Positions 905-37,017 of a stretch of 60,854 nucleotides of DNA are shown one piece after another. Every line of letters begins with the position of its first letter. Positions within the stretch are counted from its first letter, which is position 1. Below the pieces are notes generated by a model that did no database searches, was not told the origin of the DNA, and saw only the letters and a list, made by a program, of their open reading frames with translations. Position numbers and translations under genes: made by a program. The stretch lies in contig CANOCU010000016.1 in the NCBI GenBank assembly GCA_947564645.1, positions 1-60,854 on the forward strand, written 5' to 3'. This DNA is from an uncultured Lachnospiraceae bacterium (GTDB taxonomy: Bacteria > Bacillota > Clostridia > Lachnospirales > Lachnospiraceae).

Positions 905-939
905 TTGGTGCTTAAATTCGTGTACTGAAACATTGAATA

Positions 940-5157: not shown

Positions 5158-5158
5158 C

Positions 5159-6925: not shown

Positions 6926-6957
6926 TTGATCGATCCGCCTTTCCTCTTTCTACATAA

Positions 6958-6985
6958 ATAATATTGTAAAATAATTTGAATGCAA
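6958..6985 (-). promoter_or_regulatory. Predicted promoter of the Gtr-like operon
   Basis: Minus-strand TTGCAT (6980-6985) and TATTAT (6958-6963) are 16 nt apart, lying just after the terminator-like hairpin of the surface-protein gene and about 33 nt before the TTG start of the GT-C gene. The position makes the five-gene operon independently transcribed. The call is from pattern only. Confidence 0.5.
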
Positions 6986-7003
6986 AAGCAACCATGACAT
7001 AAC

Positions 7004-7035
7004 AAATGCAGCGGCAGAAACAAACCGCTGCATTT
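7004..7035 (-). terminator. Hairpin terminator after LRR surface protein
   Basis: A perfect 11-bp stem (AAATGCAGCGG at 7004-7014 against 7025-7035) with a 10-nt loop begins about 11 nt past the stop codon of the surface-protein gene. The trailing T run on the minus strand is short (ATTTGTT), so termination may be partial. The A/T-flanked stem could also work from the other strand, but no plus-strand gene is seen. Confidence 0.65.
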
Positions 7036-7046
7036 CTCTATTACGC

Positions 7047-10000: not shown

Positions 10001-11912
10001 AATCTATATCCGTACCGTTAACACCGCCGTTATCCGCCGTGCTTTCGAATTCCGCCGTGATCATAGCTCCGCCTCTGGGCATCTCGAAAGTATAATATTT
10101 TCCTTCTTTTTTAATCGGTATTCCATTGCACTTCAAAGACTCGGCGATCAACTTATTGTTTTTCTCCGGACTTGCAAACACATATAGTTTTGTGCCAGCA
10201 GCCACTCCTTTAGGCCGTGCCACGCCGTTTTCGTCTTTGCCGTTATCTACATTATTCGGATCATCGTTTGGCGCCGTGGCCGATCTCGATACCTTGATGG
10301 AACCTGCCCCTGTTACTTCACACTCCCATTTATAATACTTATTTTCTTCTTTAATCGCGGTAATACTGCTGAAACGTATCTTACGATTCAGTGTATATTT
10401 CTCTGTGTCACTGCCCGGATACCCGATCAGGCACAGCGTATCCGTGTCCGGGAAAGCATCGTTTGCAAAGGTACAGAGGATCTGCGGAACCTCAACGCGC
10501 ACCAGTTTTGAACAGTTCTCAAACGCATAGGACGCAATCTTCTGTACATATGGCGAAAACTCTATGCTGCCAAGACTGTAACATCCTTTGAACGCCCAAG
10601 ACTCAATTCCCGTCGTCTGGTTGCCATCCCCGAACGATACCAACACAAGAGAACGGCATTCGGCAAAAGCATACTGTGGAATACTGCCAAGCTTCTTCGG
10701 CAGTGTCACTTCCGTCAAAGCACTGCAGCCTTCAAACGCATGCGCTCCCATAGACGTGATATTATCCGAAAAGACAATGGATTTAACGCCGCGACAATCC
10801 TTAAACGCCGCCTCTCCGATACTGGTCAGACCATTCGGAAACGTAAAGCTCGTATCGGAACAGAACTGTGTCAACGCGCCGCATCCATGAAACGCATAAG
10901 CTTCGATCGTCTGCAGTCTGCTGATATCAGCATTTCTCATATATACCATGAACAGCCTGCTGTCTCCGTAAAAGGCACGACTGCCAATGCTTGTGACCGT
11001 CGCCGGAAGTGCGAACTGCGTCAGGGAAGTACAGCCTTCAAATGCGCTGGCTTCGATGGACTCCACACCATTGGGCATGGTCATACCCTTTAATGCCGTA
11101 CAACCCTGGAATGCATTCGCTCCGATCGAAGTAACGCCCTTGGGCATACTGATATAGGTAAGCTTTGTATTGTTCGTAAAGACACCGGAGCCAATCTTAC
11201 TAATGCCCTGTCCTTCCTCCAGAACAATATTGCCTTCCAGAGGCTTACCATCCGCCCGCTCAAGTGCGGTCAATGTACCGCTCTCATCTTTGGTATAGAT
11301 ATACTCCGTAGCGGCATTATACGTAACGAGCATGCCCACTTCATCCGTGAAGGACATCATCATGATGCCCGCTTCTTCAGCTGATTCCTCTTCGTCCTCC
11401 TCAGACGTCTTCTCATCCTCGTCTACTGTATTCTCCGAAACGCTCTCGTCCTCTTCCGTCTCATCCGCATCCGGTGTCTCTTCCTCGTCCGGGTTCGTCT
11501 CGTCAGGCTTCTCCTTGTCCGGATCGGTCACCTCTTCACCGTCGGAAGGTTTCTCCTCATCCTTACCGGTCTCTCCGCCCGGATTCTGATCCCCAGATGT
11601 ATCCTGACCGCCGGACTCGCTGCCATTCCCGGAATTGTCGTCTCCGCCCGGATTGTCCGGATTCGTCGGTTTATCCGGATTTGTCGTATTATCCGCATTT
11701 CCCGGATTCGTCTCTCCTTCCGACTTATCATTCCCGCCTTCGTCCGTCGCTCCCTGAGAAGCACCTGCTCCTTCTGTGGGCACAGTACTCTCTTCCCCTG
11801 TCGTAACAGGCAGATCTGCACCGCCAGGCGCCGTAGCGAGAACCGTCATACCGTTCATCCCCACTGCCAGGCTGAGCGCCAACAACAACGCAAGTACTCT
11901 TCTTTTCTTCAT
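7047..11912 (-). CDS. Giant secreted BspA-type LRR protein with Ig-like repeats
   Basis: This 1621-residue protein has a clear signal peptide (KK-RR then a hydrophobic core, cleavage near residue 26 after V-L-A). Residues about 28-185 form a low-complexity linker rich in N, G, P, D and E. Roughly residues 240-515 contain ten BspA-type leucine-rich repeats, recognisable by repeated A-F-x-G-C-x-x-L units. A beta repeat (about 540-640) is followed by a BIG_2-like Ig domain (about 650-730) with the typical V-x-F-T-S-x-x-P-x-I-A-S-V pattern. Further Ig-like modules fill the C-terminal 900 residues. I see no LPXTG motif or S-layer-homology repeats, so the anchoring mode is unclear. BspA-like proteins commonly act in adhesion. 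It has its own promoter and terminator. Confidence 0.85.
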   Translation of the reverse strand: MKKRRVLALLLALSLAVGMNGMTVLATAPGGADLPVTTGEESTVPTEGAGASQGATDEGGNDKSEGETNPGNADNTTNPDKPTNPDNPGGDDNSGNGSESGGQDTSGDQNPGGETGKDEEKPSDGEEVTDPDKEKPDETNPDEEETPDADETEEDESVSENTVDEDEKTSEEDEEESAEEAGIMMMSFTDEVGMLVTYNAATEYIYTKDESGTLTALERADGKPLEGNIVLEEGQGISKIGSGVFTNNTKLTYISMPKGVTSIGANAFQGCTALKGMTMPNGVESIEASAFEGCTSLTQFALPATVTSIGSRAFYGDSRLFMVYMRNADISRLQTIEAYAFHGCGALTQFCSDTSFTFPNGLTSIGEAAFKDCRGVKSIVFSDNITSMGAHAFEGCSALTEVTLPKKLGSIPQYAFAECRSLVLVSFGDGNQTTGIESWAFKGCYSLGSIEFSPYVQKIASYAFENCSKLVRVEVPQILCTFANDAFPDTDTLCLIGYPGSDTEKYTLNRKIRFSSITAIKEENKYYKWECEVTGAGSIKVSRSATAPNDDPNNVDNGKDENGVARPKGVAAGTKLYVFASPEKNNKLIAESLKCNGIPIKKEGKYYTFEMPRGGAMITAEFESTADNGGVNGTDIDWELSNGDKLKVGQTTRLFVLDEDNNIVPTSKVKFTSAKPTIASVSNTGIITALKEGHVNINVEVVTKGGGKVKKAVAIEVASTDAVSLQLIPDSYNSTIFTITDKVVGGNTVQVASVEKIAVSPDKAQVTMKLKAKAYDADGDAMAVALKWSTSDAKVAKLARTSSAATIPENTITIPKGTTGEATITATATNSKKQTITQKFIIQVRDYTPRLSASALTVNLEKEEGAVLQVISAYEGVIEPKSLELVYAKDDTVPVTELEAIYDEANSTGGIYRYVINPKSGRIDKGTYNVKVALNNRNYKIPLKITVNSTMPNPRVAYDKKQPKINLFLANDGTEVKPIVSNLGNETIESYSLEPLTSSTNDAFFTKNFQIDPATGTITQKNANMIYNDKGKLVTTGYLVLHLAGFKQNSVKKCKISIPTQTIKPSYKLDKTTDTYNMTASEKTAVLTLLDNKTKQQVVLDEENWTVALSSKSTADSVSRDGVSINDDGKIELKVNAVMGAGRVVLEVRNKAWAANQKFEYTYTVKTTAANPKIALKPATVSLNSRYPDQPGEFALSSNQFDTVLADTQNFTPQSNAKNAVEYDKLSVVYSDGKGRIEIKDPTIKAGAYKFKSDAIESSTGEIYNAVVLTVKITNAVPAMTLKGAASLNLAAQTGGTYTETAEIQMNVKLPEGYEVDAAGTIYSILCTTKNESASKGKFDWKIKDSKLCISLKGPVAAKTYSFTMTPEYVNHDSGNRVVGKAVRFNVKAYKGTIGVKLSAKGSLNLLDRGGAYTLKNSIMYTPTFSNLKDQVVEARIFDANVAPQLSDDDSKYFSAEVIDGKIYVAPRVGVSIENNKNYPVRIWVKLANYGGNIGGGMWASNKINVRTVQSIPKVTVSKTSLDLYLSNKSYAATFTVKPNTGTIGKPIEIAFGEKDTKSRESFDVTSEPQTDGSLKVTVRLKDTVSFAGNSTSRVTMYVTYEGQAVKTNGTAINMSVKINK

Positions 11913-12073
11913 CTTCCTTACCTTCTCCCATTCGTACCTTCTTAAAATCTGATGTTACTGTCATTTTCTCAAACAACTGTCACTTCTGTTGAAATCCAAA
12001 TGACTTCTCTGGCGATTGCTTCGCATTTACTTCTCTAAAGACACTCTCTGCCAAACAATACCATATTTTAGTC

Positions 12074-12102
12074 AGTATACCATTTCTGATTGTGTGACAC
12101 AA
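12074..12102 (-). promoter_or_regulatory. Predicted promoter with palindrome upstream of the LRR gene
   Basis: Minus-strand TTGTGT (12097-12102) and TATACT (12074-12079) are 17 nt apart, giving a leader of roughly 155 nt before the LRR gene. The -35 box is half of a perfect 13-nt palindrome, TTGTG-T-x-ACACAA (12090-12102), a possible repressor or activator site. The rest of the 11913-12148 gap is AT-rich, and I see no clear terminator hairpin for the upstream gene. Confidence 0.5.
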
Positions 12103-12148
12103 GTGTCTTTGCTACAAGATATAGTGTTTTTAAGGAAAAATTAATCTT

Positions 12149-15100
12149 TTAAAACAGATTTTTCCACCATGCAAGCTTCTTAGTAGCAATTGTATAGGTT
12201 ATTTTCTTCTCGCCGCCGTAATTTCCCAGGCCGCGCAGTGTGACAGTTGCCTTACCCTTATTCACATTTTTCGTATAAGTGTTCTCGTCGATCGTATAGT
12301 CTATGCCATATTGCAGGGGTTCTGTATTGCCGCTTACCGTGATCTTTAAGTCATTTTCCGTCAGGGTCACCGGCTGTCCGTTGCGGTATTCCTTCGTCTG
12401 CACTGTAACTCTCGCCTTGGCAATGTCTGCCGCCACGATCCTGTAATCCGCCGAAATCTCCGCCGCTCCCGCTCCGGCATAGAAGCCTTTTCCCTGTGCT
12501 GTGACACGGATGACGGTTCCGGCCTCCGGAATATCATCTGCCGCCACGAAGTCACCGGCATTCCGTGATATAACATTACCGTCAGTATCAGTCCATTCCG
12601 TATCTTCCGCATACGTATATAGCAGGTTCTTCTCATAATCTCTTCCTGCCGCCAGTCTTGCACCGTTACAGTCCGTCAGAACAGGAACGCTCTTGTAGGC
12701 GTTTTTCCGTTTCTTATAGACCACATCCCTGACCGTCATCGTCAGTTTACCGTTGTCTGGTGACATCTGTCCGTCCGTGATCTCGAAATATCCGGTAATG
12801 CTCCCCCTGAAATTGCCTTTACCGGTGACTGTGATCTTCGGCCGCTTCTTTTCCGGCAGTTCTTCCTGCATCGCCTTCGTCGCCACCGTATTGTTATTCG
12901 CATATCTGATCGTATAGTCTTTGCCGGGTTCTAAATGGATGCCGTTAAAGGTCAGGAGTACTACCGGCTTGCTGCCGCCCTTCATATAAGGCGTTGTGAC
13001 TTGGGATAAGTCCGCAATCTCTTTCAAACTGTCCGGTTCGTCCTGTGTGTAATACTGCATGGTGATCGCAGGATTTGATCCGGATTCATCCGGGCCGATC
13101 TGATATCCCGTTATCTTATAGCTCTTCCTGATCTGCCCTGTATACTCGTTGATCCCCTTAAACAAGATCGTTGCCGTTCCCACTTTGGAGACATTCGTAT
13201 AAGACACCACATAATCGCCTGTTACGCCGTCATCCTGACTTTCCGTCAAAACATTGCCGTTCAGAGTCAATGTATAAGCGCCGGGAGCCTGTCTTGCATC
13301 TTCCTCGCTGCCCGTGTATTCTCTGTTCTCCAGCCCTTCCACTTTAGCCCTTCCAATGGCGGTTCCGACGATCTTATAAGTAATGCTCTTACTGCCCGCG
13401 AAGCCGCTTCCTTCCACCGCCGTGATCGTCGCCGTGGCCGTACCGACCGCAGTATTATTCTTGTAGGATACGGTATAGTCTCCTGTCAGGCCGCCGTCCG
13501 TACTCTCTGTGAGCGCCTCCTTCTTATAAGTCACCTTCAGCTCCGGCATGATACCGATGCCCTGCTCCTTATCGACCAGATCATTCCGGTAGGTCTGGTT
13601 GGGAATCTTCGCGATCGCCACCTTGCCAAGCAGCACCTTCTGTGTGATCGTCTCGTATACCGTGATCGTTCCGGTATAGCCGCCCTTCCCGGTGATCAGG
13701 ATCGGATATGTGCCTGCCGTCTGATAGGCTCCTGTACCGGTCTGCGGATACGTTACCGTATAATCCGTGTTTCGCGCCAGTTTCTTACCGCTACGCCAGA
13801 CTGTCGGCGCACTCTTAATCGTTCTACCCGTGTATGCCACCGTAATGTCATCCGCCGTGACATCCGTATCCGTCAGCGGTTTGGGCACAATATTAAAGGA
13901 TATCGATTCCGTTCCGGCATAATTACCCTTACCTTTGACCGTAATCGTCGGCGCCGCCTTCCCCTCAAGGTTTACTTTCTTATTATTTTTATAGGAAATC
14001 GTATAATCCTTATTCAGAACCAGTTCGATCCGTTCCCGGCTGCCATCCTCATACGTTATACTGTCAAACACTCTCACTTCCGGTTTGATGACATTTCCGG
14101 TATAAGTCTGATCCCCAACCGGAAGGATATAGAAACCCTTACCCTGTTCTTCGTAATGCGGATAAAGTACCGTCTCCTGACGATGGATCAGCGTGTTCTC
14201 ATCAAATCTGCTGCCCGTCCCGCCGATACCCGTATACCATCCGATAAAGATATCGTCTGCTGTCCCACTTTCCAGTTCCTCTTCAGTCGGAAACTCCTGT
14301 ACCGACAGCGCGTCTCCATAGCGGACTGTCTGCTTTTTCAGGACCGTACTGCTGTCTTTCCCCATAAAAGTGACATGACATTCCTCCACCATAATGGTAT
14401 GCTGTGCCGCATAGCCCTGCTCGCAGCCCGCCACCCTGGCCGTGATCACTGCCGTTCCGCCGGCAATCGCCACAACTTTGCCGTTTCTGACTGTGGCAAC
14501 CCGCTCATCAGAGCTGCTCCAGGCCACCTGGGTATCGGAAGTAGTATCCTTCGGCCAATATTCCGCCGCCAGATTCACACTCTGTCCGGCAAGCAAAGTC
14601 GTTGTTTCCACCTGATCCGCTTCCGCTACGTTGGGATTTGACAGCTCCACCTGATAGATTGGCGCACTCACCTTAACCTTACAGGACGCACTCTTCACAG
14701 GTGTACCGCCTGCCTTAGACGCCTTGGCCGTGATCACAGCCTCCCCCTTGCCCACTGCAGTCACCACTGCCCGGGGCGCATCTGCGGGCGCTGTCGGATC
14801 GGCGGCAACCTTCGCGACTCTGGTATTGGAGGAAGTCCAGACGATCGTCCTGTTTGCGGTAGTATCTGCCGGATCAAACGTTACCTGTAACGATACAGTG
14901 GCGGTATTCTCCCTGCGCTCTTCCTCACTCAGGCCGGTGATATCTTCCACAACTGTATCCGGTCTGCGAAGAGACACTTCATTTTGATCCAGAGAAATAC
15001 TCTGCAAGGTTGCCTGCACCGTAACTTTACAGGAAATTTCCGCCTTTTTATAAGAAACCGTAATGACAGCCTCTCCGGTCTTACCCCCTTCCACCGCTCT

Positions 15101-17281
15101 GACGGTGCCGTCTTCGACAGTCACGACCGATGTGTCGCTGCTGCTCCAAATCACCTCTTCATCGGGAAGATTTACGACTTTCCCATCGGCGTACAACTTC
15201 AGTGTCTGTCCGGTCGTGCAGTCCCTGGCGCTGCTTCTGTCCAACTTTAATGCTGTTTTGCTTAATTTCAATACCGGGATCTTCTCCGGTTCTTCCGGTA
15301 CAGGCGGCGCGATGCCGCTCTCATTCGGCATATTGTTATAGACCGGAATCTTGAATACAAAGGCTGAATTCAGCGAACCGGCATTGGCATACATCTTCTT
15401 CGTGGTCGAAGATTCACTGGCCGGCGCCTGGATATTCTGCATATATTGATGGTTATAGAGTCCGTAGGGACTGTTGCGGTCTACATTGAATTTCTCCAGA
15501 TAAAGGGTGTCCTGGTATTTCAGGATATAATTATTGCCGATCGTCGCCGCGCCGCCTTCCAGAGACTTATACCGCGTATTCCATCCCTTACTCTTCGCAT
15601 AGGTCAGTCCCTTTACGATCTTCTCGGTTGTGGAAGAACCGTTAACTCCCACATTAAAGAAATTATAATAATTCTCATAGCCCGGATAGGTACCGGAAAT
15701 CAGCCCCGACGTACCCTTCCCCTGTTCCTGATATACACGGGACGCCAGATGGATCGGACTTAATCGCCTGTTTTTTCCAATTTCAAAGAAGGCCTGCGCA
15801 TAGGTACGCTTCGCGGTATCATCCGGTAAAACGCCTTTCATAAAGGTTGTATTCAGAAATGTCTGAACCGCAGACTGCGTATGATAAGACGCATTAAAAG
15901 TCAGCTGCTCAAACTGGAAAATGTAGGTCTCCGTCAGGAAATTACGTGGATCCATATAGTATTCCACTGCCGGTCTGGTTGCATAGTACCAGCCGCTCTC
16001 ACTGGGACAGGCATTCCCTACCCAGCCCTTGGAAGCATTGCTTGTCGTCTTCTGAATCAGACTCTTGTCCCCCATCTCCTTCGAGACAGACGCAGCAAAA
16101 TCCAACCCTGTCTTCATTGGCACAAAAGTCCAGTTCGGATGTGCATTCTTCAAATCTCTGAGAGCGCTCTGATAAGAACCCGGAAAGGCGGTAATATCCG
16201 AAGTATTCATGGCATAAGGCATCATGGAACCAGCTGCCATTCCAAAAGCTGTGATTCCGTATGTATCACCGATTTCCAGAATCGGTAACAGGTACTCGTT
16301 CTCCCAGGCGATCCAGTCCTCGTCAGAATAGGCCAGATAGTAACTCTGCACATATCCCGTGCCCTCCGCACCGTCTATATAGAACTGCACCGCATACCAC
16401 ACATCACTGTCCGTGATCGTGACCCCTTTGATATACAAGGTCTGTCCGATTTCCAATGTCGCCGTAGTCTCACTGTTCTCGTACGGCCAAAGCCTTGCAC
16501 TATAAGTATCCGTGTGATAGAGCAGCGCCATCAGATCCTTCTGTGCAAGCAGTTTCGTGAATGCCTCCCCGGCAGCTTTGATCATAGCCTGACGATCTTC
16601 CTCCAGACTGTTTTCAGAGACAGAGGAAAGGTCGTTCTCAGAAACGGATGACAGATCGTTCTCGGAGACGGAGGATAAGTCATTGTCGGAGATGCTGCCG
16701 GAGTCACTGTCCGGAGTGTCTGCCGGCGGGTTCACATCATCCGGGACATCCGGAACAATGCCAGAATCTGTATCTCCGGAGCCATTATTGTCCGAACCAT
16801 CATTCTCCGAATCATTGTTGTCTGAACCATTGCTATCTGAATTGCTATTATCCGAGCCACTGCTATCCGAATCGCTATTATCCGATCCATTGCCATCCGA
16901 ATCGCTGCTGTCTGCGTCACCGTTCTCTGAATCGGTGCTGCCTGTGTCAGTATGATCAGAGCCGTAATCACCTGTACCATCATCACTGCCACCCGGAGCA
17001 TCCTGATTCGATCCGGCATTCCCTGCATTGTCACTACCCGGACCATTCTGACCGGCATGATCCTGATCGGTCGTCTGATCGGCCGTCTCCCCGGTATTCT
17101 CTTCGTTACGTGCACCGGAACTACCGGCGGAATCCCCTGCCGTAGCGATATCCACCTGCATTCCCACCGTATCTTCTACCGCCAGAACCTGCACCGGGCT
17201 ACTCTCCAAACATAAAGCCAGGCATAGGGCTATGGCACAGTATCGGTATTTTCTGGAATATTTTCTCTGCATCGTTTTCAA
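12149..17281 (-). CDS. Giant secreted glucosaminidase with SH3-like, BIG2 and beta repeats
   Basis: The 1710-residue protein opens with a basic n-region and hydrophobic core (signal peptide, cleavage near residue 35). Next come a Ser/Asp/Gly/Asn-rich linker (about 45-205) and four 8-residue S-V-S-E-N-D-L-S repeats. An SH3b-like domain follows (about 235-330), then an endo-beta-N-acetylglucosaminidase domain (about 370-665). The last shows ASRVYQEQGKGTSGLISGTY and YNFFNVG, the conserved glutamate and aromatic segments of LytD/Auto-type peptidoglycan hydrolases. Three BIG_2-like domains (about 690-1000), an InlB-type repeat (about 1010-1075) and many Y-T-G repeat modules complete it. It likely cuts cell-wall glycan outside the cell. 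No LPXTG is visible. It sits directly downstream of the three-gene PRTase cassette but behind that cassette's terminator. Confidence 0.88.
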   Translation of the reverse strand: MKTMQRKYSRKYRYCAIALCLALCLESSPVQVLAVEDTVGMQVDIATAGDSAGSSGARNEENTGETADQTTDQDHAGQNGPGSDNAGNAGSNQDAPGGSDDGTGDYGSDHTDTGSTDSENGDADSSDSDGNGSDNSDSDSSGSDNSNSDSNGSDNNDSENDGSDNNGSGDTDSGIVPDVPDDVNPPADTPDSDSGSISDNDLSSVSENDLSSVSENDLSSVSENSLEEDRQAMIKAAGEAFTKLLAQKDLMALLYHTDTYSARLWPYENSETTATLEIGQTLYIKGVTITDSDVWYAVQFYIDGAEGTGYVQSYYLAYSDEDWIAWENEYLLPILEIGDTYGITAFGMAAGSMMPYAMNTSDITAFPGSYQSALRDLKNAHPNWTFVPMKTGLDFAASVSKEMGDKSLIQKTTSNASKGWVGNACPSESGWYYATRPAVEYYMDPRNFLTETYIFQFEQLTFNASYHTQSAVQTFLNTTFMKGVLPDDTAKRTYAQAFFEIGKNRRLSPIHLASRVYQEQGKGTSGLISGTYPGYENYYNFFNVGVNGSSTTEKIVKGLTYAKSKGWNTRYKSLEGGAATIGNNYILKYQDTLYLEKFNVDRNSPYGLYNHQYMQNIQAPASESSTTKKMYANAGSLNSAFVFKIPVYNNMPNESGIAPPVPEEPEKIPVLKLSKTALKLDRSSARDCTTGQTLKLYADGKVVNLPDEEVIWSSSDTSVVTVEDGTVRAVEGGKTGEAVITVSYKKAEISCKVTVQATLQSISLDQNEVSLRRPDTVVEDITGLSEEERRENTATVSLQVTFDPADTTANRTIVWTSSNTRVAKVAADPTAPADAPRAVVTAVGKGEAVITAKASKAGGTPVKSASCKVKVSAPIYQVELSNPNVAEADQVETTTLLAGQSVNLAAEYWPKDTTSDTQVAWSSSDERVATVRNGKVVAIAGGTAVITARVAGCEQGYAAQHTIMVEECHVTFMGKDSSTVLKKQTVRYGDALSVQEFPTEEELESGTADDIFIGWYTGIGGTGSRFDENTLIHRQETVLYPHYEEQGKGFYILPVGDQTYTGNVIKPEVRVFDSITYEDGSRERIELVLNKDYTISYKNNKKVNLEGKAAPTITVKGKGNYAGTESISFNIVPKPLTDTDVTADDITVAYTGRTIKSAPTVWRSGKKLARNTDYTVTYPQTGTGAYQTAGTYPILITGKGGYTGTITVYETITQKVLLGKVAIAKIPNQTYRNDLVDKEQGIGIMPELKVTYKKEALTESTDGGLTGDYTVSYKNNTAVGTATATITAVEGSGFAGSKSITYKIVGTAIGRAKVEGLENREYTGSEEDARQAPGAYTLTLNGNVLTESQDDGVTGDYVVSYTNVSKVGTATILFKGINEYTGQIRKSYKITGYQIGPDESGSNPAITMQYYTQDEPDSLKEIADLSQVTTPYMKGGSKPVVLLTFNGIHLEPGKDYTIRYANNNTVATKAMQEELPEKKRPKITVTGKGNFRGSITGYFEITDGQMSPDNGKLTMTVRDVVYKKRKNAYKSVPVLTDCNGARLAAGRDYEKNLLYTYAEDTEWTDTDGNVISRNAGDFVAADDIPEAGTVIRVTAQGKGFYAGAGAAEISADYRIVAADIAKARVTVQTKEYRNGQPVTLTENDLKITVSGNTEPLQYGIDYTIDENTYTKNVNKGKATVTLRGLGNYGGEKKITYTIATKKLAWWKNLF
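16601..16696 (-). repeat. Four 24-bp coding repeats (S-V-S-E-N-D-L-S)
   Basis: Exactly 96 bp encode four consecutive 8-residue units, SISDNDLS, SVSENDLS (twice) and SVSENSLE, between the Ser/Asp linker and the SH3-like domain of the glucosaminidase. The bases have diverged between units, so the repeat is conserved mainly at protein level. Such a linker motif may be cleaved, modified or simply spacing. Confidence 0.85.
16756..17010 (-). repeat. Ser/Asp/Asn/Gly-rich low-complexity coding repeat
   Basis: Within the glucosaminidase gene this stretch encodes irregular units such as GSDNSDSDSS and GSDNNDSEND, made of tcc-gaa/gat-type repeated codons (read on the opposite strand). It resembles the Sdr-type stalks of Gram-positive surface proteins. 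The irregular period and open frame exclude a CRISPR array. Boundaries are approximate. Confidence 0.75.
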
Positions 17282-17423
17282 ATCCCTTCAACATTTCAAT
17301 GTTATGTCTACCTGCTCTATTATCATATCATGTTTCTGGGATATTTCCAGTACAAAGTTATGTAAATCATTTCCAAATTTATAGTTAACGACATTAGAAA
17401 TGTCACTTACTATAAATATAAAA

Positions 17424-17461
17424 AATCTCCCCATGGTCAAAACCAGACCATTGAGGAGATT
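17424..17461 (-). terminator. Rho-independent terminator of the three-gene cassette
   Basis: On the minus strand, GGAGATT-type outer arms (17424-17430 with 17455-17461) and inner TGGTC/GACCA arms (17434-17438 with 17446-17450) form a stem with one bulge and a short loop. It is followed directly by TTTTTTATATTT. It begins only about 4 nt past the stop of the gene at 17465, closing the operon and isolating it from the glucosaminidase gene. The remaining gap to 17282 is AT-rich. It holds a small inverted repeat, GACATT-AGA-AATGTC (17390-17404), and a weak TATGAT box, with no convincing -35. Confidence 0.8.
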
Positions 17462-17464
17462 CAC

Positions 17465-18466
17465 TTACGTAATGCATTCAAACATCACCCCGCCGCTATA
17501 CTTTACCGGATCTCTCAGATAATCCTTAATCAAGTTTGCATTTGCTGTTTTTGCTTTCGATGAATGCAGGCTGATTTTTCCTAATCTCTTTACCTCTTCA
17601 ATCTGTAGCTCCTGCACTTCATATTTCTGAAGACACTCCAATAATGCTCCTGCGTCTTCTCGAGCGTATGCCTTTAAAAAGGCCGCCAGAACAGTAGCGC
17701 ACTCTCTGAAACGATCCTGATCAGACTTATCTGTTAAAAGAAAAGACAAGAGATTCCCAACTGCCTTCTTCTCATATAACTTTTTCTTAATCTCGCCTGA
17801 CAAATATCTCAGATCATGGGAGTAACTTCCAACCTCTTCCATACCAGCCATGATTCCATTCATATAGCTCTCAACCTGATTCAGAAGTTCTTCCCTCTCC
17901 GCGTATAGAAGTTCCCAATTCCGTAATAATTCCGTTATCCTGCCAACAACTTGAATCTCCCTGTCGCCAGAAGTAACTGTCTGCAAAAAGCACTGAAACA
18001 AACTCCGAAAATGGGTCAGCAGCGACCGCTCATCAAAAATATCATAAAAATCTATCAAAGGTATATGTTGACCGCCTTCACATTCTCTCAAAACCAACGT
18101 TTTCTCAATCGCAACATCTCTGATCGACTGTGCCAGAAGACTGTCCAAATCCTTTATCAGTTTGTCGCACTCCGGTTGCGTACAACCAGACTGTAAAACC
18201 ATTTCCACCCGCTCTTCCGTCGTATATTTCTGGCAGATCGGTACTGTTTCCTCCAAAGAAAAAACTTCCTCTCCCGTCTGTCTTTTTATCTGTATCCTAT
18301 TCTTACCAGCGGCATTGCCAAATCTACAGCCCTTTTCAAATACTTTCGTACAATATACAAAACATTCATAATTTTTCCTGCCCGGACATAAATGTATTCC
18401 TCTCGAACTATCACAAGACAGTCTCATCCCCAAATTATATAAAATCTTATGCTGTTCTGTCGTCAT
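17465..18466 (-). CDS. Unknown protein with Cys-rich N-terminus, third gene of PRTase cassette
   Basis: I do not recognise a family for this 333-residue soluble protein. Five cysteines fall in the first 47 residues (C18, C27, C35, C39, C47), spaced as if they could bind a metal or Fe-S cluster. Additional cysteines lie near residues 78, 95 and 100. The middle and C-terminal parts are predicted helical and charged. No signal peptide or membrane segment is present. It starts 17 nt after the PRTase-like gene ends, and the terminator follows its stop, so it is the last gene of a three-gene transcription unit. Possible roles are sensor, regulator or effector partner of the PRTase-like protein; all are inference. 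Confidence 0.7.
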   Translation of the reverse strand: MTTEQHKILYNLGMRLSCDSSRGIHLCPGRKNYECFVYCTKVFEKGCRFGNAAGKNRIQIKRQTGEEVFSLEETVPICQKYTTEERVEMVLQSGCTQPECDKLIKDLDSLLAQSIRDVAIEKTLVLRECEGGQHIPLIDFYDIFDERSLLTHFRSLFQCFLQTVTSGDREIQVVGRITELLRNWELLYAEREELLNQVESYMNGIMAGMEEVGSYSHDLRYLSGEIKKKLYEKKAVGNLLSFLLTDKSDQDRFRECATVLAAFLKAYAREDAGALLECLQKYEVQELQIEEVKRLGKISLHSSKAKTANANLIKDYLRDPVKYSGGVMFECIT

Positions 18467-18483
18467 CCTTCGTGCCCTTCGTT

Positions 18484-20199
18484 CTATCCAAATTCGTAGC
18501 CTTTTTCAATCCTCATCCCACGCTGCACTTCCGGTCTCTCCCTGAACATGGAATATTTATCAAAATAATACGACGAATACTCTCGTTCAAAAGATTCCTT
18601 TTTCAACTCTTCTATTTCCTGCGCGCTGATCCGCTCACGCAAACCGGGATTCTGACCCATGATATCCTCAATAATCTGACATTTCATATCTGCCTTTTTT
18701 GATCCCGAAACCTCTTTTTCTTTACAGTACATTTCATACTGCAACAACGGATACACAAGCTCTGCCAGATTTTCTTCATTGCATGCGTGATTCTGTTCTC
18801 CTGCATACAGCAACGAATCTACATATGTCGTCCCATTTATGATGTTAAAAGCAATTGCAATCGTTCCCCGTCCTGTATCAATTACCTCCTGTATCTTTTC
18901 CCATGCTGCATTTCGATTTGGCGCATATTGATAAACCCGTTCCACCTCGATCCCACGCATCCGCTCTTTATTCTGCTCTGCAAGCTGCTCATCACGTTTA
19001 CTGCTCAGTTTCAAATAGTGATCCAGAAAATAATCCACATCCTTTTCTTGCTGCATTACTGACTGGCTTCTTCCCTGTAGCAAGGAATCAATCACCTCGT
19101 TTATATCACTATTTTCCTCCAACGAATAAGTACCCTCTCCTATTGTACTGATTCTGTTAAGTCCCGCAACAATCCTGCCTTCAGCATCTTCACTCAAGAC
19201 AATATCACATCCCAGACTGGTCGTTTCAACTATAGTGTTTCTTTCCCAGTCCTCCATTCCATGTTGGCGCAAAAAACTATTCCCCGCCAGCAAGCTAGTC
19301 ACGTATGTCAGCAATGAATAGGCATATTGTGCCTTCAATTTATTTTCTTTCAATGCCTCAGCATCCTGAACAAAATCGCCATTCCCATGAAAGCAAATTA
19401 CATCTTCCTTGACAAGAAACTGAAAACTGTCAGCAATCTGAGAGTAAGTCAAAGGCTTTAGGTAAGCATATGGCAGCACAAGCAGCCTATCCGCTCGCTC
19501 ATATTCATAAATACGAATCAAAATTTCCCGGCACAATCCCAGATTGTTCGCATCATGATATAAGTAAGAGGAGATCCCATGCCTTTTCTGTGTCTTAATC
19601 GCATGATCCTGAAGATGCTGATCCTGCAAAAAACTTGATATTGTATCATCCTCTGCCGAATGTAGTTCCGTCTCATAATAAGGGAGATAAAACATATATG
19701 GCCAGCCTGACTCCATAAAAGCATCTACAATCTTACTCGAAGCAAACCTCCACATATCTGTATTTTCTTTTCTTTTGAAATCGGTTAATTCCATCAGTGA
19801 CTGATCAATAATATTCGCATCCGTGTTTCGTAAATAAATTTTAACACGAATATTTTCCTTCCTGCATCCGCATTCCATCAGATCAGTTACAATCTTCTTG
19901 ATTGCACGTCCATGAAGCAGCGTATCGTCCACAATTAAAATGCGCTTATCTTTGAAGTCATGCAAAGCAATCGACAGGTTCGTAACAAAACACCCCGATA
20001 CTTTTAGTTCGTTCTTGTAACTTGAGAGAGCAATCGGCAAAAGCCCTGTATGCAGTACAAAAAAACGCCGTCCCATTAAAATCTTGTAATTGAACTGGCT
20101 CTCCGATATCTCCATATCGAAATCAACCAGATCTGCAAATAAGGCCGACCCCATTTCCCTTGCCAAATTTTCAATTTCCCTGTCCATCTGTTGTTTCAT
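18484..20199 (-). CDS. Phosphoribosyltransferase-like multidomain protein
   Basis: The 571-residue protein carries a phosphoribosyltransferase signature at about residues 86-99: ILIVDDTLLHGRAI, that is, four hydrophobic residues, two acidic residues and a small/Gly turn, as in the PRPP loop of type I PRTases. The upstream beta strands (FFVLHTGLLPIALSS) and downstream KKIVTDLMECG helix fit the same Rossmann-like fold. The remaining about 400 residues are mostly helical and unassigned, so this is not a simple salvage enzyme, and no purine or pyrimidine pathway genes are nearby. The ATG overlaps the upstream membrane-protein gene by 29 bp, indicating tight coupling. PRTase-like domains are known as effectors in bacterial conflict systems; that role here is a hypothesis. 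Confidence 0.7.
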   Translation of the reverse strand: MKQQMDREIENLAREMGSALFADLVDFDMEISESQFNYKILMGRRFFVLHTGLLPIALSSYKNELKVSGCFVTNLSIALHDFKDKRILIVDDTLLHGRAIKKIVTDLMECGCRKENIRVKIYLRNTDANIIDQSLMELTDFKRKENTDMWRFASSKIVDAFMESGWPYMFYLPYYETELHSAEDDTISSFLQDQHLQDHAIKTQKRHGISSYLYHDANNLGLCREILIRIYEYERADRLLVLPYAYLKPLTYSQIADSFQFLVKEDVICFHGNGDFVQDAEALKENKLKAQYAYSLLTYVTSLLAGNSFLRQHGMEDWERNTIVETTSLGCDIVLSEDAEGRIVAGLNRISTIGEGTYSLEENSDINEVIDSLLQGRSQSVMQQEKDVDYFLDHYLKLSSKRDEQLAEQNKERMRGIEVERVYQYAPNRNAAWEKIQEVIDTGRGTIAIAFNIINGTTYVDSLLYAGEQNHACNEENLAELVYPLLQYEMYCKEKEVSGSKKADMKCQIIEDIMGQNPGLRERISAQEIEELKKESFEREYSSYYFDKYSMFRERPEVQRGMRIEKGYEFG

Positions 20200-21175
20200 T
20201 TTTGTCTTCTTTCTCTATAATTGTTACGTTTGGGTGCTCTAAATATAACCGCTCTGCCTCTTTATTGCTCTGGAGAAAATAATTTAGCCGGTAATCCCTG
20301 GTCTTTCCAATCTGATTCATAAATTCCACTTCAATCGTCAACTGGCTCTGCGAAAAATTGCTTTTACCCATTGTATAATTTTCCTGATGTGTCATCATGG
20401 CATCAATAAATTCCGTCCCGCAGTTTCCTTCCCGGCCTGCTCTTTTAATCACGTCGCCGTCATCAATTAGTATTTGCAGTTCCTCGTTTAATTCCGCATA
20501 CTTTTCTTTTTTCAAATTAATTCCATATAACCTTGCAGCAATCCGCCATTCAATCTTTTTAATATGGATCTGCTCTATCGGAACAAGTCCTTTTTCCCGA
20601 AAAGCAATCTTTATATAGACAAAATCTGACCGCTTATCGGAAGGAACTATTCCATGCATACTAAGATAAATCGAAGTATAGTTCATCTCATTGATATTCT
20701 GTTTCTGATCACCCGCATATACTTTCACTTCTCCGCTTTTAATACTGACGGCCGGTTTGATCTGGTATGCTGCTACCTGTGCCTGCAGATCTCTTATCTC
20801 ACGGTTTTGAATCTCAATACTTTCTTTTTGCTTCTCAATCTCCTGATCCTGCTTTCGATTGACTCCTGTCTGCCAGTAAGCAAGCGCGCCCATTATGATT
20901 GTTCCAACAACCCCCAGATAGCTGCCCAGAAAATCCATCCATTCTTTAGCATCCCTTGATGATTCTATTGGAATCGCTATATACCATTTATGCAGGATAA
21001 GCTGATCCAGACAGAATGGAAAAGCTATGATCAGAATGATGCCAAGAAGCAATGCCCACCCGCCTTTTCCGTGTTGAAGAAGGCGAAAGATCTGCCACAA
21101 TCCCACACCAAATAGAATTACTGCAGCTACTATCATAATGCATATAATCACTGTTCCTATTTCGCTCATTTGCAA
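20171..21175 (-). CDS. Three-helix membrane protein with coiled coil, first gene of PRTase cassette
   Basis: A 334-residue protein with predicted transmembrane helices at about 8-32, 40-61 and 83-102. A charged coiled coil follows (about 107-137, K-Q-D-Q-E-I-E-K-Q repeats), then a soluble domain (140-334). The third helix is preceded by E-W-M-D-F-L-G-S-Y-L-G, a pattern I associate with putative abortive-infection and other uncharacterised membrane proteins containing W-x-x-F-L-G-x-x-x-G before a helix. No enzymatic motif is visible in the C-terminal domain. It is the promoter-proximal gene, and its end overlaps the PRTase-like gene. A membrane-tethered sensor or scaffold passing a signal to the PRTase-like protein would fit. 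The function is unproven. Confidence 0.7.
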   Translation of the reverse strand: MQMSEIGTVIICIMIVAAVILFGVGLWQIFRLLQHGKGGWALLLGIILIIAFPFCLDQLILHKWYIAIPIESSRDAKEWMDFLGSYLGVVGTIIMGALAYWQTGVNRKQDQEIEKQKESIEIQNREIRDLQAQVAAYQIKPAVSIKSGEVKVYAGDQKQNINEMNYTSIYLSMHGIVPSDKRSDFVYIKIAFREKGLVPIEQIHIKKIEWRIAARLYGINLKKEKYAELNEELQILIDDGDVIKRAGREGNCGTEFIDAMMTHQENYTMGKSNFSQSQLTIEVEFMNQIGKTRDYRLNYFLQSNKEAERLYLEHPNVTIIEKEDKNETTDGQGN

Positions 21176-21213
21176 TTTTTCTCAAATACCGTCTTTGCTT
21201 CCACAAATATTAC

Positions 21214-21242
21214 AGTGTACAACAGTTCTTTTGAAAAGTCAA
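21214..21242 (-). promoter_or_regulatory. Promoter of the three-gene PRTase cassette
   Basis: Minus-strand TTGACT (21237-21242) and TACACT (21214-21219, preceded by TG two bases before) are 17 nt apart, about 39 nt before the ATG at 21175. Together with the terminator at 17424-17461 this makes the cassette a self-contained unit, independent of the long glycan operon that ends at 21426. Confidence 0.65.
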
Positions 21243-21253
21243 TTCTTGACTTT
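21235..21253. promoter_or_regulatory. Inverted repeat over the -35 box (candidate operator)
   Basis: AAAGTCAA-TTC-TTGACTTT is a perfect 8-bp inverted repeat with a 3-nt centre, and one arm contains the -35 hexamer of the cassette promoter. A dimeric regulator bound here would block RNA polymerase. No regulator gene with a helix-turn-helix is seen nearby, so its ligand is unknown. The rest of the 21254-21425 gap is very AT-rich; I found no clear terminator for the long upstream operon. Confidence 0.5.
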
Positions 21254-24930: not shown

Positions 24931-26037
24931 CTACGGCAAAATATGATGAAGCCAGGTTCTCATTCCTGTCTGATAACAATTCCTGATAACACGAAATATT
25001 TCATTGTAGTCTATCCTGTTCTGTTCCCTCATCTGATCTGTCAAAGCAGCAAGCTGTGTTATTAAATAAGGATTTGCCATAAAATTATCCGGTTTACTGT
25101 GTTCAGCATAGGCTGTAATATGCGGCAGGTGCAATGTCTCATTCATTCCGAATCCCCTGATATCTTCCTCGATCAGCAGACTTGGAATCATTTTGCTGAT
25201 ACAGTAAATATGTGTATGCACACGAAAACCTACGTGAAGATCAACTACGTCAAGTGCCCTGAATTTAGCCGCATCGTTTGACAGATCCACACATTCCACG
25301 CCACACCCCTCTGCCCATTCCTGCAGCGACAGATTGTAATACTTAGAATATTTCGTTATATATCCGTCATTAAAAGTAAGCATAATCTTAACCTCAGGAA
25401 ATTTCTCCTGTAAAAAAAGGATGACTTCTTTCATTTGAGAAAGCTTCTTCTCATGATCCTGCGCATTCTTCGTGAGACCATGGTTAGAGACTGCTACTGT
25501 CCTGATCTGCTTATCTGCAAAAGATTCCTGAAATATCTTATCCTTCTCCGGCCGCTCTAGCATCTCTCTGTCATACCAGGCTGGACAGCCCGCCATAACC
25601 GCTCCCCGGATACCACTATTTCGAAATATTGTATCCACAATCCAGTCCCTGGTCGCAAGCTGTCCGCCACGTTCGATCACCTGGTTAAAATAGGTAATCA
25701 TTTTCTCCGAATAAGGATACTCATAAAGTGTGCTGTTCTCTCCGTTTGCCCCATACAATCCTGTACCCATATAATGAATCGGCACCTTAATCTCATCGAA
25801 ATGCTGATAAAAAAAACTGGTCTTCACATACGGCTCTGCATACTGCGCACCGCCTCCTCCTGTTACAACCGCATCATACTCATTCATTTCATCAATGGCA
25901 AATTGCGCATCATTTTTCAGATTTAAATCTATTTCAGCTTTGGGATATACCGCTTTTAATAGTTCCATAATCCTTTTGTAAATCAGAAAATCTCCGCCAT
26001 TGCTGAAGGGTCTTCCAACCACTAATATTTTTCTCAT
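24931..26037 (-). CDS. Polysaccharide pyruvyltransferase-family protein
   Basis: The 368-residue protein matches the CsaB/WcaK family that adds ketal pyruvate to sugars, or in other members acts as a glycan-tailoring enzyme. Visible features are the opening RPFSNGGDFLIYKRI, the VTGGGGAQYAEP glycine turn around residue 60, and VDLHVGFRVHTHIY near 268, which corresponds to the conserved R-x-H-x-x-x-x motif. It is cytosolic, has no signal peptide, and overlaps the KpsS-like gene by 4 bp (ATGA-type coupling). It may pyruvylate the repeat unit built in this operon. The Fe-S protein at 1334-2596 belongs to a family often found next to such enzymes, but is in a different operon here. Confidence 0.8.
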   Translation of the reverse strand: MRKILVVGRPFSNGGDFLIYKRIMELLKAVYPKAEIDLNLKNDAQFAIDEMNEYDAVVTGGGGAQYAEPYVKTSFFYQHFDEIKVPIHYMGTGLYGANGENSTLYEYPYSEKMITYFNQVIERGGQLATRDWIVDTIFRNSGIRGAVMAGCPAWYDREMLERPEKDKIFQESFADKQIRTVAVSNHGLTKNAQDHEKKLSQMKEVILFLQEKFPEVKIMLTFNDGYITKYSKYYNLSLQEWAEGCGVECVDLSNDAAKFRALDVVDLHVGFRVHTHIYCISKMIPSLLIEEDIRGFGMNETLHLPHITAYAEHSKPDNFMANPYLITQLAALTDQMREQNRIDYNEIFRVIRNCYQTGMRTWLHHILP

Positions 26038-27584
26038 CTTCCATTTTCCTTTTCATTATCAGTTCTTTCGTCAAACGCCGATGCCCTGTCTTTCCCTATG
26101 AATTCAGTAATAACCCTTGTAAGTCCCTTCTCCATATCCTGCACCTCAAAGGAGACATTATGCAGTGCCTTCGTATAGATCTTCAGCTCCTTTATGACAT
26201 CTTTTCGCGGCATTAACGCAATCTTTCTCAAAGCCTCTTTACATTCTTCCACTGTACGAACATGATAAGTCAGGGGTGCAAGATTCTTTACAGAATATCC
26301 AAATGCCAACGCCGACACTCCAAAAAACTGACATTCCCAGAGCGCCGTACCCGTCAGAGAGGCAACCGCAACCGCATTTTTCATCAGTTCATAGGTACTC
26401 GTCTCTATCTTCATCAGTCTTACTTTCGGAATCCTCGCTATCTCATCATAATAGTCCTGCGTCCGCATCAAAGACAACTGCTCCGGATGAGTCTTAACAT
26501 AAATCTTCATATCTGCCGGCAACGATTTGCTGAGAATATTAAGCGGAATGGTCTGATCAGCATACATGCCTCCTCCCATCGGATTCGAAGTGGCCTCCGG
26601 CTGATACTGCAAAGGGAAATAAATATACTGCTCTCCATGCACTGGCTCCACCGCCAGTGACTGATAATATTCTCTGAACTTAACGCTCAGTTTCTTCACC
26701 GGCCTGACGAATCGCCAACGTCTCCAGGCTATCGGAATCATTCGCAACAGCTGCGGTGTCTTCTGAATTGATATTTTAAAGAATGCAGAACTAACTCCAT
26801 GCTCAGCATAAGCCTCTCCCAATATTCCCTTCCAAATCCTGATAAGATTCGTCTCATAAAACCTTTGCCGCAGTCTTCTGATAAATGGGTCAACCCGCAT
26901 ATACCATGGTTTCATCTGGTCCGGTTGCAAAGACGACCACCGCTTAAACACTTCCGCCGTCTTCCCTTCTAGCGGAATCTCTTCAATATTAGTATGTTCA
27001 TATTGCTTCAATAATCTACCATATTCTGCTTTCAATGTCGGTTCATCCACCTTAAAATCATTGAGCGGATAACGCCGGTATGGAATAAAACAGCTGTGTA
27101 CAAGTTGTACCGAAATGTTCAAATATTTGCATAAATAATAGATAATACAATCATATCCTTCATGCGGTATCGCAGAAATGAACACGTGTGTAATATATTT
27201 CTGCTTCAAATAATTATACCAGAAAAAAAGATTATGCATATACACCGTATAATGATTGTTCCAATCCGACTCAATCTGAAAATCCGGATACAGTTCAAAT
27301 CTTCTCTGCTGATGCATAATCTCCATACTGTACTGGTTCATATATTGTATAATATCATCTTCCAGTGGGATATTATCTTCCGGATTCAGCTGCCTTTCAT
27401 CATAGATGCCCCGTGCTGCGTTTTCCCGCAAAATGCACTCTCCGTATGTCTCGAATATCGGCAGTTCCTCTGACTTACCTACCACCATATACAGCTCATC
27501 AACCCCTGCTGCTTTTCTGATATTCTCTATTACCCGGCTGCTCAATCCTCCTTCCACCGCCAGGCACAGCAACAAATTAACCAT
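26034..27584 (-). CDS. GT-B-like capsule polysaccharide protein (KpsS/KpsC-like resemblance)
   Basis: A 516-residue cytosolic protein. Its C-terminal part contains YIYFPLQYQPEATSNP, IYVKTHPEQ and VASLTGTALWECQFFGVSAL. These correspond to the F-x-P-L-Q-x-x-P-E, K-x-H-P and T-G-T/S-x-x-x-E-x-x-x-x-G-x-P positions of KpsC/KpsS-type capsule proteins and related CMP-sugar-dependent glycosyltransferases. The N-terminal half is not recognised. I start at the ATG 27582-27584, which has a G-rich site upstream; a longer reading to 27647 overlaps the ABC gene heavily. With CMP-nonulosonate enzymes in the same operon, a nonulosonate transferase is a reasonable hypothesis. The general GT-B call is more secure than the donor. 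Confidence 0.65.
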   Translation of the reverse strand: MVNLLLCLAVEGGLSSRVIENIRKAAGVDELYMVVGKSEELPIFETYGECILRENAARGIYDERQLNPEDNIPLEDDIIQYMNQYSMEIMHQQRRFELYPDFQIESDWNNHYTVYMHNLFFWYNYLKQKYITHVFISAIPHEGYDCIIYYLCKYLNISVQLVHSCFIPYRRYPLNDFKVDEPTLKAEYGRLLKQYEHTNIEEIPLEGKTAEVFKRWSSLQPDQMKPWYMRVDPFIRRLRQRFYETNLIRIWKGILGEAYAEHGVSSAFFKISIQKTPQLLRMIPIAWRRWRFVRPVKKLSVKFREYYQSLAVEPVHGEQYIYFPLQYQPEATSNPMGGGMYADQTIPLNILSKSLPADMKIYVKTHPEQLSLMRTQDYYDEIARIPKVRLMKIETSTYELMKNAVAVASLTGTALWECQFFGVSALAFGYSVKNLAPLTYHVRTVEECKEALRKIALMPRKDVIKELKIYTKALHNVSFEVQDMEKGLTRVITEFIGKDRASAFDERTDNEKENGR

Positions 27585-29382
27585 GCTCAGCCCCCCTGTT
27601 CTCCTGCAGAACTGCCTTGCCATTCGCAATCTCATATACCGCATCACAGCTCCTGATCGTTGTCAGTCTGTGTGCTACGATAATCAAGGTCTTATGCCCT
27701 TGAAGCGATTCTATTGCTTCCATCACTGCAGATTCCGTTTCATTGTCAAGAGCTGACGTAGCTTCATCCAACACGATAATATCCGGATCATAATAGAGCG
27801 CTCTGGCAATCGCCACTCTCTGCCTCTGGCCTCCTGAAAACTTCACGCCACGTTCTCCTACAATCGTATCCAATCCAACGGGCAATCCTTCTATGAATTT
27901 CTTAAGCTGCGCCTGCTCCAAAGCATTCCATACAGCCTTATCATCAATACCTTGAGCGTCAATGCCAAACGCTACGTTATTACGTATCGTATCATCTGTC
28001 AGATAAACACTCTGCGGCACATAACCAATCGTTCTGTTCCATGTTTCCGGTATCTTACGGATATCCATTCCGTCCATATAGATTGTCCCTGTCTGCGTAG
28101 GCAGAAGGCCAAGGATCATGTCTGCCAGTGTTGTTTTCCCGGCTCCGGAAGCCCCAATAAAACCGACTGCCTGTCCTTTCGGTATTCTCATATCCAGATC
28201 CCTGATAATATACTGCTCCGTATTCGGATATTTCCAGCTGACATGTTCTAACGTAAGCTCCTGCTGAAACTTCTGACCTGATTCCTCCCTGTTTTCTGGC
28301 ATCAACCGCCCGCTTCTCTCCATTTCACTGGATGCCGCCTGTACTTCACAGATGTTCTTATATACATCGTTCATAGTAGCCCTGTAGTAAACAATAATAT
28401 TATAATTATTTGTGATCTTACCAATTGACGGCAAGATCCGAAAAGCCGCCATCGCGAAAGCTGCCGCCTGGGAAACAAACTCTGTTCCGTTCTGTCCTGT
28501 CAGGGATTTTACACACAGCATGGCAATAAAAACGACTATGCAGATTCCCTCGATTACATAAGCCGGACTCTCTGAAGCAAAATTTTTGATCGCGTTCGCC
28601 CTGTTCTTCCCCGTCACCGCTTCTTCATAACTGCGTGCAAAATAAGACTGTCTTCCAGTTACCAACACATCCTTGATCCCATTGAACGCCTCGTTAACGG
28701 CCTTAATGCACTTCTGATGGTAGACCAAAGAATTCTGTCCCTGACGTCGCATAGTCTTATGAAAAACCACAATGATGATGACCAACGCAAATGCCGCAGA
28801 AATTCCCAACGTAACTGCCATCACATAATCTGTAACAAACAGCACGATGATAATCATCACCGTCGACATACACTCCATAATAATGGTAAATACGCTTGTA
28901 AGCGTGGAAGAAATCCCTGTAATATCATATATGATACTCCGAAGCAGTACCGTACTGTTTGTATTAATGTGGAATGTATACTCTCTGCTCAGATAAGAAT
29001 TCATCAATCGCATGGAAGTTTCCTGATCCACTCTTCTAAAAAATCGATTCTTATAGTAAGACAGAAACGACATATAAACATTCTTAAAAAGATAAATGGC
29101 AATCGTGCCACCTGAAACCAGTAAGACAAGCCGTGCGGTACTGTCAATATGCAAACTTGTCCACACCCACTGCAGATCCTGATCATATAACAGTTCCGAT
29201 GGAGACAGAATTACCTGCACCATCGGCACCAACACGGAAACACCTAACATTTCCAAAAAGGAACCAATAAACATCATAAGAAAAATGACTATACTTCCCC
29301 GTCTCTGCTCCCGTGTAAAAATCTCATAAAATTGTTTGTAAATACCTTTGACCTGTTTCAATATTTTCATATATTGTAGCAA
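27577..29382 (-). CDS. PglK/MsbA-like ABC exporter, copy 1
   Basis: A 601-residue half-transporter with an N-terminal six-helix permease (about 25-320) and a C-terminal ATPase. Walker A is GASGAGKTTL (near 407), the ABC signature FSGGQRQR and Walker B DIIVLDEATSALD, followed by the switch histidine in IVAHR. The C-terminal ATPase and sequence feel are those of PglK-type flippases for lipid-linked oligosaccharides. It overlaps LegB by 16 bp upstream and the KpsS-like gene by 8 bp downstream. A paralogue lies at 55793-57571 with the same GSFLE-LGV opening, so two exports may operate in this locus. Confidence 0.88.
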   Translation of the reverse strand: MLQYMKILKQVKGIYKQFYEIFTREQRRGSIVIFLMMFIGSFLEMLGVSVLVPMVQVILSPSELLYDQDLQWVWTSLHIDSTARLVLLVSGGTIAIYLFKNVYMSFLSYYKNRFFRRVDQETSMRLMNSYLSREYTFHINTNSTVLLRSIIYDITGISSTLTSVFTIIMECMSTVMIIIVLFVTDYVMAVTLGISAAFALVIIIVVFHKTMRRQGQNSLVYHQKCIKAVNEAFNGIKDVLVTGRQSYFARSYEEAVTGKNRANAIKNFASESPAYVIEGICIVVFIAMLCVKSLTGQNGTEFVSQAAAFAMAAFRILPSIGKITNNYNIIVYYRATMNDVYKNICEVQAASSEMERSGRLMPENREESGQKFQQELTLEHVSWKYPNTEQYIIRDLDMRIPKGQAVGFIGASGAGKTTLADMILGLLPTQTGTIYMDGMDIRKIPETWNRTIGYVPQSVYLTDDTIRNNVAFGIDAQGIDDKAVWNALEQAQLKKFIEGLPVGLDTIVGERGVKFSGGQRQRVAIARALYYDPDIIVLDEATSALDNETESAVMEAIESLQGHKTLIIVAHRLTTIRSCDAVYEIANGKAVLQENRGAEHG

Positions 29383-36990: not shown

Positions 36991-37017
36991 CGTCAAACAC
37001 TCCACATAGTTTGCTTT

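Follow-up and report, generated by a model that had tools for sequence, protein, structure and literature searches.

Type III retrons carry a phosphoribosyltransferase (PRTase) as putative effector, in the portion of the description available here (PMC12548924), and in the DprA-PRTase system ShosTA a PRTase is coupled to a second protein and protection against phage was shown, the mode of action of the PRTases in retrons being stated as unknown in the accessible part of the same report (PMC9122126). The PRTases found within polyvalent proteins of phages and plasmids have a DD motif and a conserved Arg-containing loop, according to the available excerpt (PMC5512222). RADAR is described, in the sections of the account at hand, with two genes only, and distinct RADAR systems are 24-28% identical, a divergence that is called typical of immune proteins (PMC9994260). 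A figure legend of the DefensePredictor study mentions a PRTase in a figure of validated systems, and an overlap with the cassette described below is possible (PMC13092281, figure legend). In the partly accessible texts of the open-access literature, neither a three-gene system of membrane, PRTase and Cys-rich proteins nor a PRTase in RADAR was found.

The window, a stretch of 60,854 nucleotides from an uncultured Lachnospiraceae bacterium, contains a three-gene cassette, A-B-C, with all genes on the minus strand, encoding a membrane protein (A), a PRTase-like protein (B) and a Cys-rich protein (C). The cassette is like type III retrons in having a PRTase as putative effector (PMC12548924, available portion), but the partners of B are membrane and Cys-rich proteins and not a winged-helix protein; no reverse transcriptase was found with Pfam among A, B, C and 20 other proteins of the window, and the window gave no Rfam match, ncRNAs included, and no tRNA. 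As in ShosTA, a PRTase is paired with another protein (PMC9122126, accessible part), but neither A nor C matches the DprA family in Pfam and B has no ShosT match. The DD motif and Arg-containing loop of the polyvalent-protein PRTases are present in B (PMC5512222, excerpt), but those proteins are parts of mobile elements whereas A-B-C is a chromosomal operon and the C-terminal 400 residues of B match no known family. RADAR is linked to the cassette in two genomes, as a homologue of B is the first gene of the RADAR operon of G332 and RADAR fills the window's slot in G373, but PADLOC detects no RdrA or RdrB in the cassette itself. PADLOC at E 1 returned zero families for A, B and C, and given the absence of a reverse transcriptase, DprA, RdrA/B and any PADLOC match, the cassette is filed under none of retron, DprA-PRTase or RADAR. 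From its predicted proteins, it fits best as a new variant of PRTase-based conflict systems, and A-B-C is probably an undescribed system of this type that acts against phage.

Organization of the cassette

The original prediction placed three genes here, joined by an overlap and a short gap, and the three reading frames were found at the coordinates claimed, with an A/B overlap of 29 bp and a B/C gap of 17 nt (Table 1). Given the recurrence of all three in order and dN/dS values of 0.15-0.30, these are considered genuine genes. In the two closest cassette pairs, B has dN/dS values of 0.15 and 0.18 and C of 0.20 and 0.26, whereas for A one pair gives 0.30 and the other is saturated. All of these values are rough, as dS is 2-3 in one of the two pairs. 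The cassette is under purifying selection.

Three signals had been proposed to bound the unit. The terminator downstream of C is convincing, both in its stem and in its T-run. The promoter claim stands in so far as the hexamers are present, but promoter-like sites number 17 in the region against a shuffle mean of 13.9 (sd 3.8), which is within chance. The palindrome over the -35-like hexamer, AAAGTCAA-GAA-TTGACTTT, is perfect and unique within the window as described, but an inverted repeat of equal or greater length was obtained in 162 of 2000 shuffles (about 8%) of the 261-nt upstream stretch, and the palindrome was not found upstream of five other cassettes. Its reading as a conserved operator is unsupported.

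Table 1. Features of the cassette and its surroundings (window positions)
Feature	Position	Strand	Remarks
Wall-protein gene	12149..17281	-	Big_2, 1710 aa; anchors slot; outside cassette
Edge of variable slot	17379..17380	.	homology to the DNA of G371 and G373, upstream of wall gene, ends here
Intrinsic terminator after C	17412..17458	-	-18 kcal/mol stem and T-run
Gene C	17465..18466	-	Cys-rich, 333 aa, 13 Cys; N-terminal Cys cluster
Gene B	18484..20199	-	PRTase-like, 571 aa; R44 loop, VDDTLLHG, D441-x-G443, AGE 466-468
Gene A	20171..21175	-	membrane protein, 334 aa; TTG start at 21175 or in-frame ATG at 21169, two codons in
Promoter-like hexamers TTGACT-17-TACACT	21214..21242	-	not above chance for region
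Inverted repeat 8-3-8 over -35-like hexamer	21235..21253	-	perfect; possible operator

Recurrence and spread

A search with the single sequence of B in 77 genomes of the genus at E 0.001 gave seven matches (window, G356, G372, G300, G302, G357 and G358); those in G357 and G358, and a second place in G300, are 47-residue matches to PRTase loops and were dropped. A four-sequence profile of B matched 7 of the 77 genomes (window, G300, G315, G356, G372, G350 and G332), and a profile scan of genome_contigs returned five loci, namely those of G356, G372, G300 and G315 and one new locus in a MAG labelled Hungatella sp. The whole cassette is present in five of the 77 genomes, the window's own included, and in the Hungatella MAG, and it is truncated by a contig end in two more, G350 retaining A and the 68 N-terminal residues of B at the contig end and G314 the last 223 residues of C at the contig start. 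In all six whole copies the order A-B-C is kept on a single strand, and the spacing ranges from -29 to +15 nt between A and B and from 17 to 28 nt between B and C.

In samples of family (397), class (391) and phylum (199) genomes the window itself was the sole true match, and since searches beyond the genus score few candidates per genome, absence there is weak evidence. Four family matches to B outside its own genome, by eye three PurF proteins and one permease, were dropped, as was a PurF place that was matched again in the family profile search. Scans with the single sequence of B gave nothing in genome_contigs or viral_contigs, and A and C as single sequences and the profiles A4 and A10 gave nothing in viral_contigs. 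Nor was anything returned by tblastn of B against plasmids and phages, of the G332 relative and the G300 copy of B against plasmids, or of the Hungatella copy of B against phages.

In the alignment, the B protein of the window shows 19-22% identity to its five relatives, and three pairwise comparisons put it at 22-25%, a divergence that resembles the one between distinct RADAR systems as given in the available sections of that account (PMC9994260). The adjoining wall-protein segment of the window is 76% identical to that of G372 and 77% identical to that of G300, two genomes that hold whole cassettes elsewhere. Given 19-22% identity in B and 76-77% in the wall protein, the cassette was not simply inherited with the genome.

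The neighbourhoods of the copies differ. In the window, genes for NeuB, Epimerase_2, a cytidylyltransferase and a CBS protein lie on one side and the Ig-like wall protein on the other; further off, the window encodes five large proteins that have no Pfam match at E 1e-5 (2597-4204, 5159-6925, 26034-27647, 34309-35475 and 35548-37005). By eye from the translations, the G356 copy is next to nucleotide-sugar and other glycan genes, and, likewise by eye, the G300 copy is next to a ManC-like gene and a giant surface protein, the G350 fragment next to ManC, the Hungatella copy next to flagellin and glycosyltransferase genes, the G372 copy next to an AgrA/AgrC-like pair and a LysM protein, and the G315 copy next to a lipid-kinase-like gene. 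An HTH_3 (Xre-type) regulator overlaps A in G372. Downstream of the G315 copy (L025, C9, 8845-11439) an 864-aa protein combines HD-CE and HATPase (HSP90-like ATPase) domains, and PADLOC gave no match for it. Thus the genes do travel together through differing neighbourhoods, as had been proposed, with a constant order in the six whole copies and changing flanks. Homologues found only singly or in fixed housekeeping positions, which would have spoken against a self-contained unit, are not the picture for the cassette, single relatives of B being seen in G332 and G302.

Glycan genes lie near four of the six whole copies, which raises the possibility of a role in surface-glycan or wall biogenesis, in which a membrane-anchored PRTase-like enzyme would make or sense a nucleotide-linked precursor and the genes would ride with variable glycan islands. 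The glycan-type genes that adjoin the window copy and, by eye, the G356, G300 and Hungatella copies agree with such a role. On the other hand, none were seen in the stretches read around the G315 and G372 copies, and occurrence in 7 of 77 genomes is patchy. A second possibility is a toxin-antitoxin-like or stress module not aimed at phage, in which B would be toxic or produce a nucleotide signal, C or A would be its inhibitor and the whole would be kept through addiction or a Ter-like part in stress. A compact operon with overlapping genes and a patchy spread would suit such a module, as would the Xre regulator at the G372 copy and the possible operator palindrome of the window. This scenario is unlikely: searches of plasmids and phages did not find the cassette, and a simple toxin-antitoxin pair would not usually comprise three large genes, one of them for a membrane protein.

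The slot beside the wall-protein gene

The wall gene that anchors the slot was detected in 62 of the 77 genomes of the genus at E 1e-40, the most similar being that of G371 (91% identity). DNA homology spans the wall-gene promoter and ends at window position 17379 in the comparison with G371 and at 17380 in that with G373. Beyond this edge the window has C-B-A, G371 has an HNH protein and an ATPase, and G373 has matches to RdrB and RdrA. With PADLOC, the G371 slot matches PDC-M62B (1.5e-60) and PDC-M62A (1.2e-81) and, more weakly, PtuB and PtuA, and the G373 slot matches RdrB (2.1e-38) and RdrA (3.8e-7). The cassette therefore stands in the place of the RADAR and PDC-M62 systems of two sister genomes, a location expected of a defence system. 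The PDC-M62-type HNH and ATPase pair occupies 9316-12727 of its stretch (G371, L081, C14:72000-85663) and RADAR 6455-13180 (G373, L082, C4:8000-27900); upstream of the latter, the reading frame of a 441-aa protein, which gave weak TPR matches, shares 44 bp with rdrA.

The survey of the slot covered 45 of the 61 further genomes that carry the wall gene, two of the 45 having almost no upstream sequence. G371 and G373 apart, 41 slots contained one or more ORFs of 200 aa no further than 4 kb away. Among the Pfam matches listed for the 80 nearest ORFs (1e-5) were 12 to response-regulator/LytTR domains, 11 to DUF4956 and eight to epimerase/dehydratase (nucleotide-sugar) families, other families having few members each, and PADLOC at 1e-5 matched the same ORFs to mad3 (two, best 3.4e-31), PDC-M60C (two, best 4.2e-7), mad8 (one) and PDC-M60B (one). 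Clear PADLOC systems are present in 2 of the 43 other slots, or 3 of 44 if the window is counted as one, in a comparison where slots are possibly not orthologous if the wall gene beside them is a more distant one, at about 50% identity. At this frequency the slot is taken to be the variable end of a surface locus with occasional defence modules and not a dedicated island; the wall-protein-adjacent slot of the genus would then be a site where defence modules land from time to time. The unit had been described as an island in the usual setting of defence cassettes, and the glycan and wall genes that flank it are indeed there, but a dedicated defence island is not. Nearness to known defence genes, which had been put forward as a check, is seen in the slot shared with the RADAR and PDC-M62 systems of the two sisters, clear systems being confined to these two of the 43 other slots.

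A homologue of B at the head of a RADAR operon

In G332 (L026, C29:1-8508) a RADAR operon at 535-8005 is headed by a 611-aa homologue of B, followed after 15 nt by a match to RdrA (1.1e-13) and then by one to RdrB (2.3e-29), an arrangement seen at one locus only. Alignment of the 611-aa protein to the B profile is end-to-end and takes in 417 columns at an hhalign probability of 97.3, and its HMMER match to the profile, a weaker one with an E value of 1.1e-4, covers profile positions 22-120. It shares R44, D91, D92, H96, G97, R151, R229, P243, E404, D441, G443 and A466-G467-E468 with B. Searched alone, the protein found 0 of 250 family genomes, in a search without a positive control, and its PDB search was empty at E 1. 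A further relative of B, in G302 (L015, C31:186000-205900), is a 1088-aa protein at 7326-10592 whose first 300 or so residues are related to B; it has a weak ShosT match (E 0.0029) and lies, by eye, near a CMP-sugar-type gene. In the stretches read, A and C are not beside the B relatives of G332 and G302.

Given that the slot is shared with RADAR and PDC-M62 in sister genomes and that one RADAR operon begins with a homologue of B, a defence reading is favoured, and a role of the cassette in conflict or defence is judged quite likely from its gene content and locations. The same two observations weigh against the surface-related role, to which the CMP-sugar-type gene near the G302 protein lends some weight; with glycan genes beside four of the six whole copies it stays the main rival of the defence reading, although an unlikely one. 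If the defence reading is correct, a portable, PRTase-centred three-gene system with a RADAR-wired homologue would be a tractable place in which to study PRPP chemistry in immunity.

Protein B

Pfam family PF00156 matches B over residues 78-113 with an E value of 2.2e-4 and 21 bits against a gathering cut-off of 26.3; it matches three of the six members of the B family at E 0.1 and neither of the B relatives of G332 and G302. The original prediction of a PRTase-like protein is thus right about the motif VDDTLLHG, but the score lies under the Pfam cut-off. The acidic pair in ILIVDDTLLHG follows a hydrophobic strand, as in the PRPP loop of type I phosphoribosyltransferases. None of R44, D91, D92, H96 and G97 varies among seven proteins, the RADAR-linked relative of G332 included, and at the level of motifs B keeps the basic loop and the DD..HG residues expected of a PRPP site. 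The PRTase assignment is a weak one on these Pfam scores and on a PDB search with the B profile, in which HDAC6 was best (0.027) and purine PRTases followed from 0.07, all at the loop and none of them significant. The 400 or so residues that were predicted to follow the PRTase-like region of this 571-residue protein are borne out and are conserved too (D441, G443 and AGE), and they have no known relative in Pfam or PDB profile searches.

Classic PRTase enzymes have TG where B has HG, and they have a flexible catalytic loop, for which the R44-D91 stretch leaves little room at a spacing of only about 47 residues. Within a defence role, it is therefore conceivable that B is a sensor or scaffold with a PRTase fold that binds PRPP or a nucleotide and that the effector is its C-terminal domain or another protein, and the conservation of the C-terminal 400 residues fits this as well. 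It is somewhat unlikely, given that R44, D91, D92, H96 and G97 do not vary, as would be the case for an active site in use. That B uses PRPP is, if the cassette has a conflict or defence role, the moderately favoured reading of its motifs. It is tentatively suggested, and with considerable doubt, that B founds a family of immune PRTases, defined by DD..HG and the C-terminal domain with AGE, that is plugged into either A-B-C or RADAR. In that event unrelated defence outputs would lie downstream of one common chemistry that depends on PRPP and may act on purine nucleotides.

Proteins A and C and a proposed mechanism

The N-terminal third of protein A is hydrophobic and is followed by a coiled-coil-like stretch and a soluble part. 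It had been described as a three-helix membrane protein, and three hydrophobic stretches are present in the window copy (6-24, about 32-60 and 82-100), but the five relatives have just two. BLAST of A against the G356 copy gave an E value of 9e-4 across 25 residues, and homologues of A adjoin B in every whole copy of the cassette. No SLATT model of Pfam, NCBIfam or PADLOC matched A at E 1, and a PDB search with the A profile was empty at E 1. The Cys-rich character claimed for C is evident in its composition (Table 1), and C27, C35 and C39 are aligned across the six copies, in an N-terminal cluster with the potential to bind metal. Searches with the C profile gave matches in 6 of the 77 genomes, five beside B and the sixth in G314, and none in the PDB at E 1. 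BLAST of the window C against those of G356 or G300 found no significant similarity, and the homology of C rests on its position, on the Cys cluster and on the profile, whose alignment contained the G356 and G300 copies.

For a defence cassette, it is suggested that A would hold the complex at the membrane and register there a disturbance brought on by infection, and that C would restrain or license B through a metal- or Fe-S-binding Cys cluster. B would be the enzyme and, once released, would draw on PRPP to deplete or modify nucleotides, or a target that carries a base, and so stop phage growth or the cell. The roles given to A and C are speculative and more doubtful than not, and this wiring from sensor to effector is far less secure than the conflict-cassette reading itself. 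Taken as a whole, a conflict cassette that moves horizontally and is most likely directed against phage is a reasonably probable account of the sequences.

The A profile matched 10 of the 77 genomes, six of them beside B. The other four matches are weak and were dropped; the two that were read are to a shorter membrane protein beside a 345-aa protein. In these two genomes, G307 and G341 (L045 and L046), the protein has two transmembrane stretches, with an SYxGxxxxFLGTxxLGAL stretch that resembles A, and PADLOC on one such pair matched neither protein. The remaining weak matches are in G340 and G308 (L047 and L048). The anchor helix of A is of a generic type, being present also in this unrelated two-gene pair.
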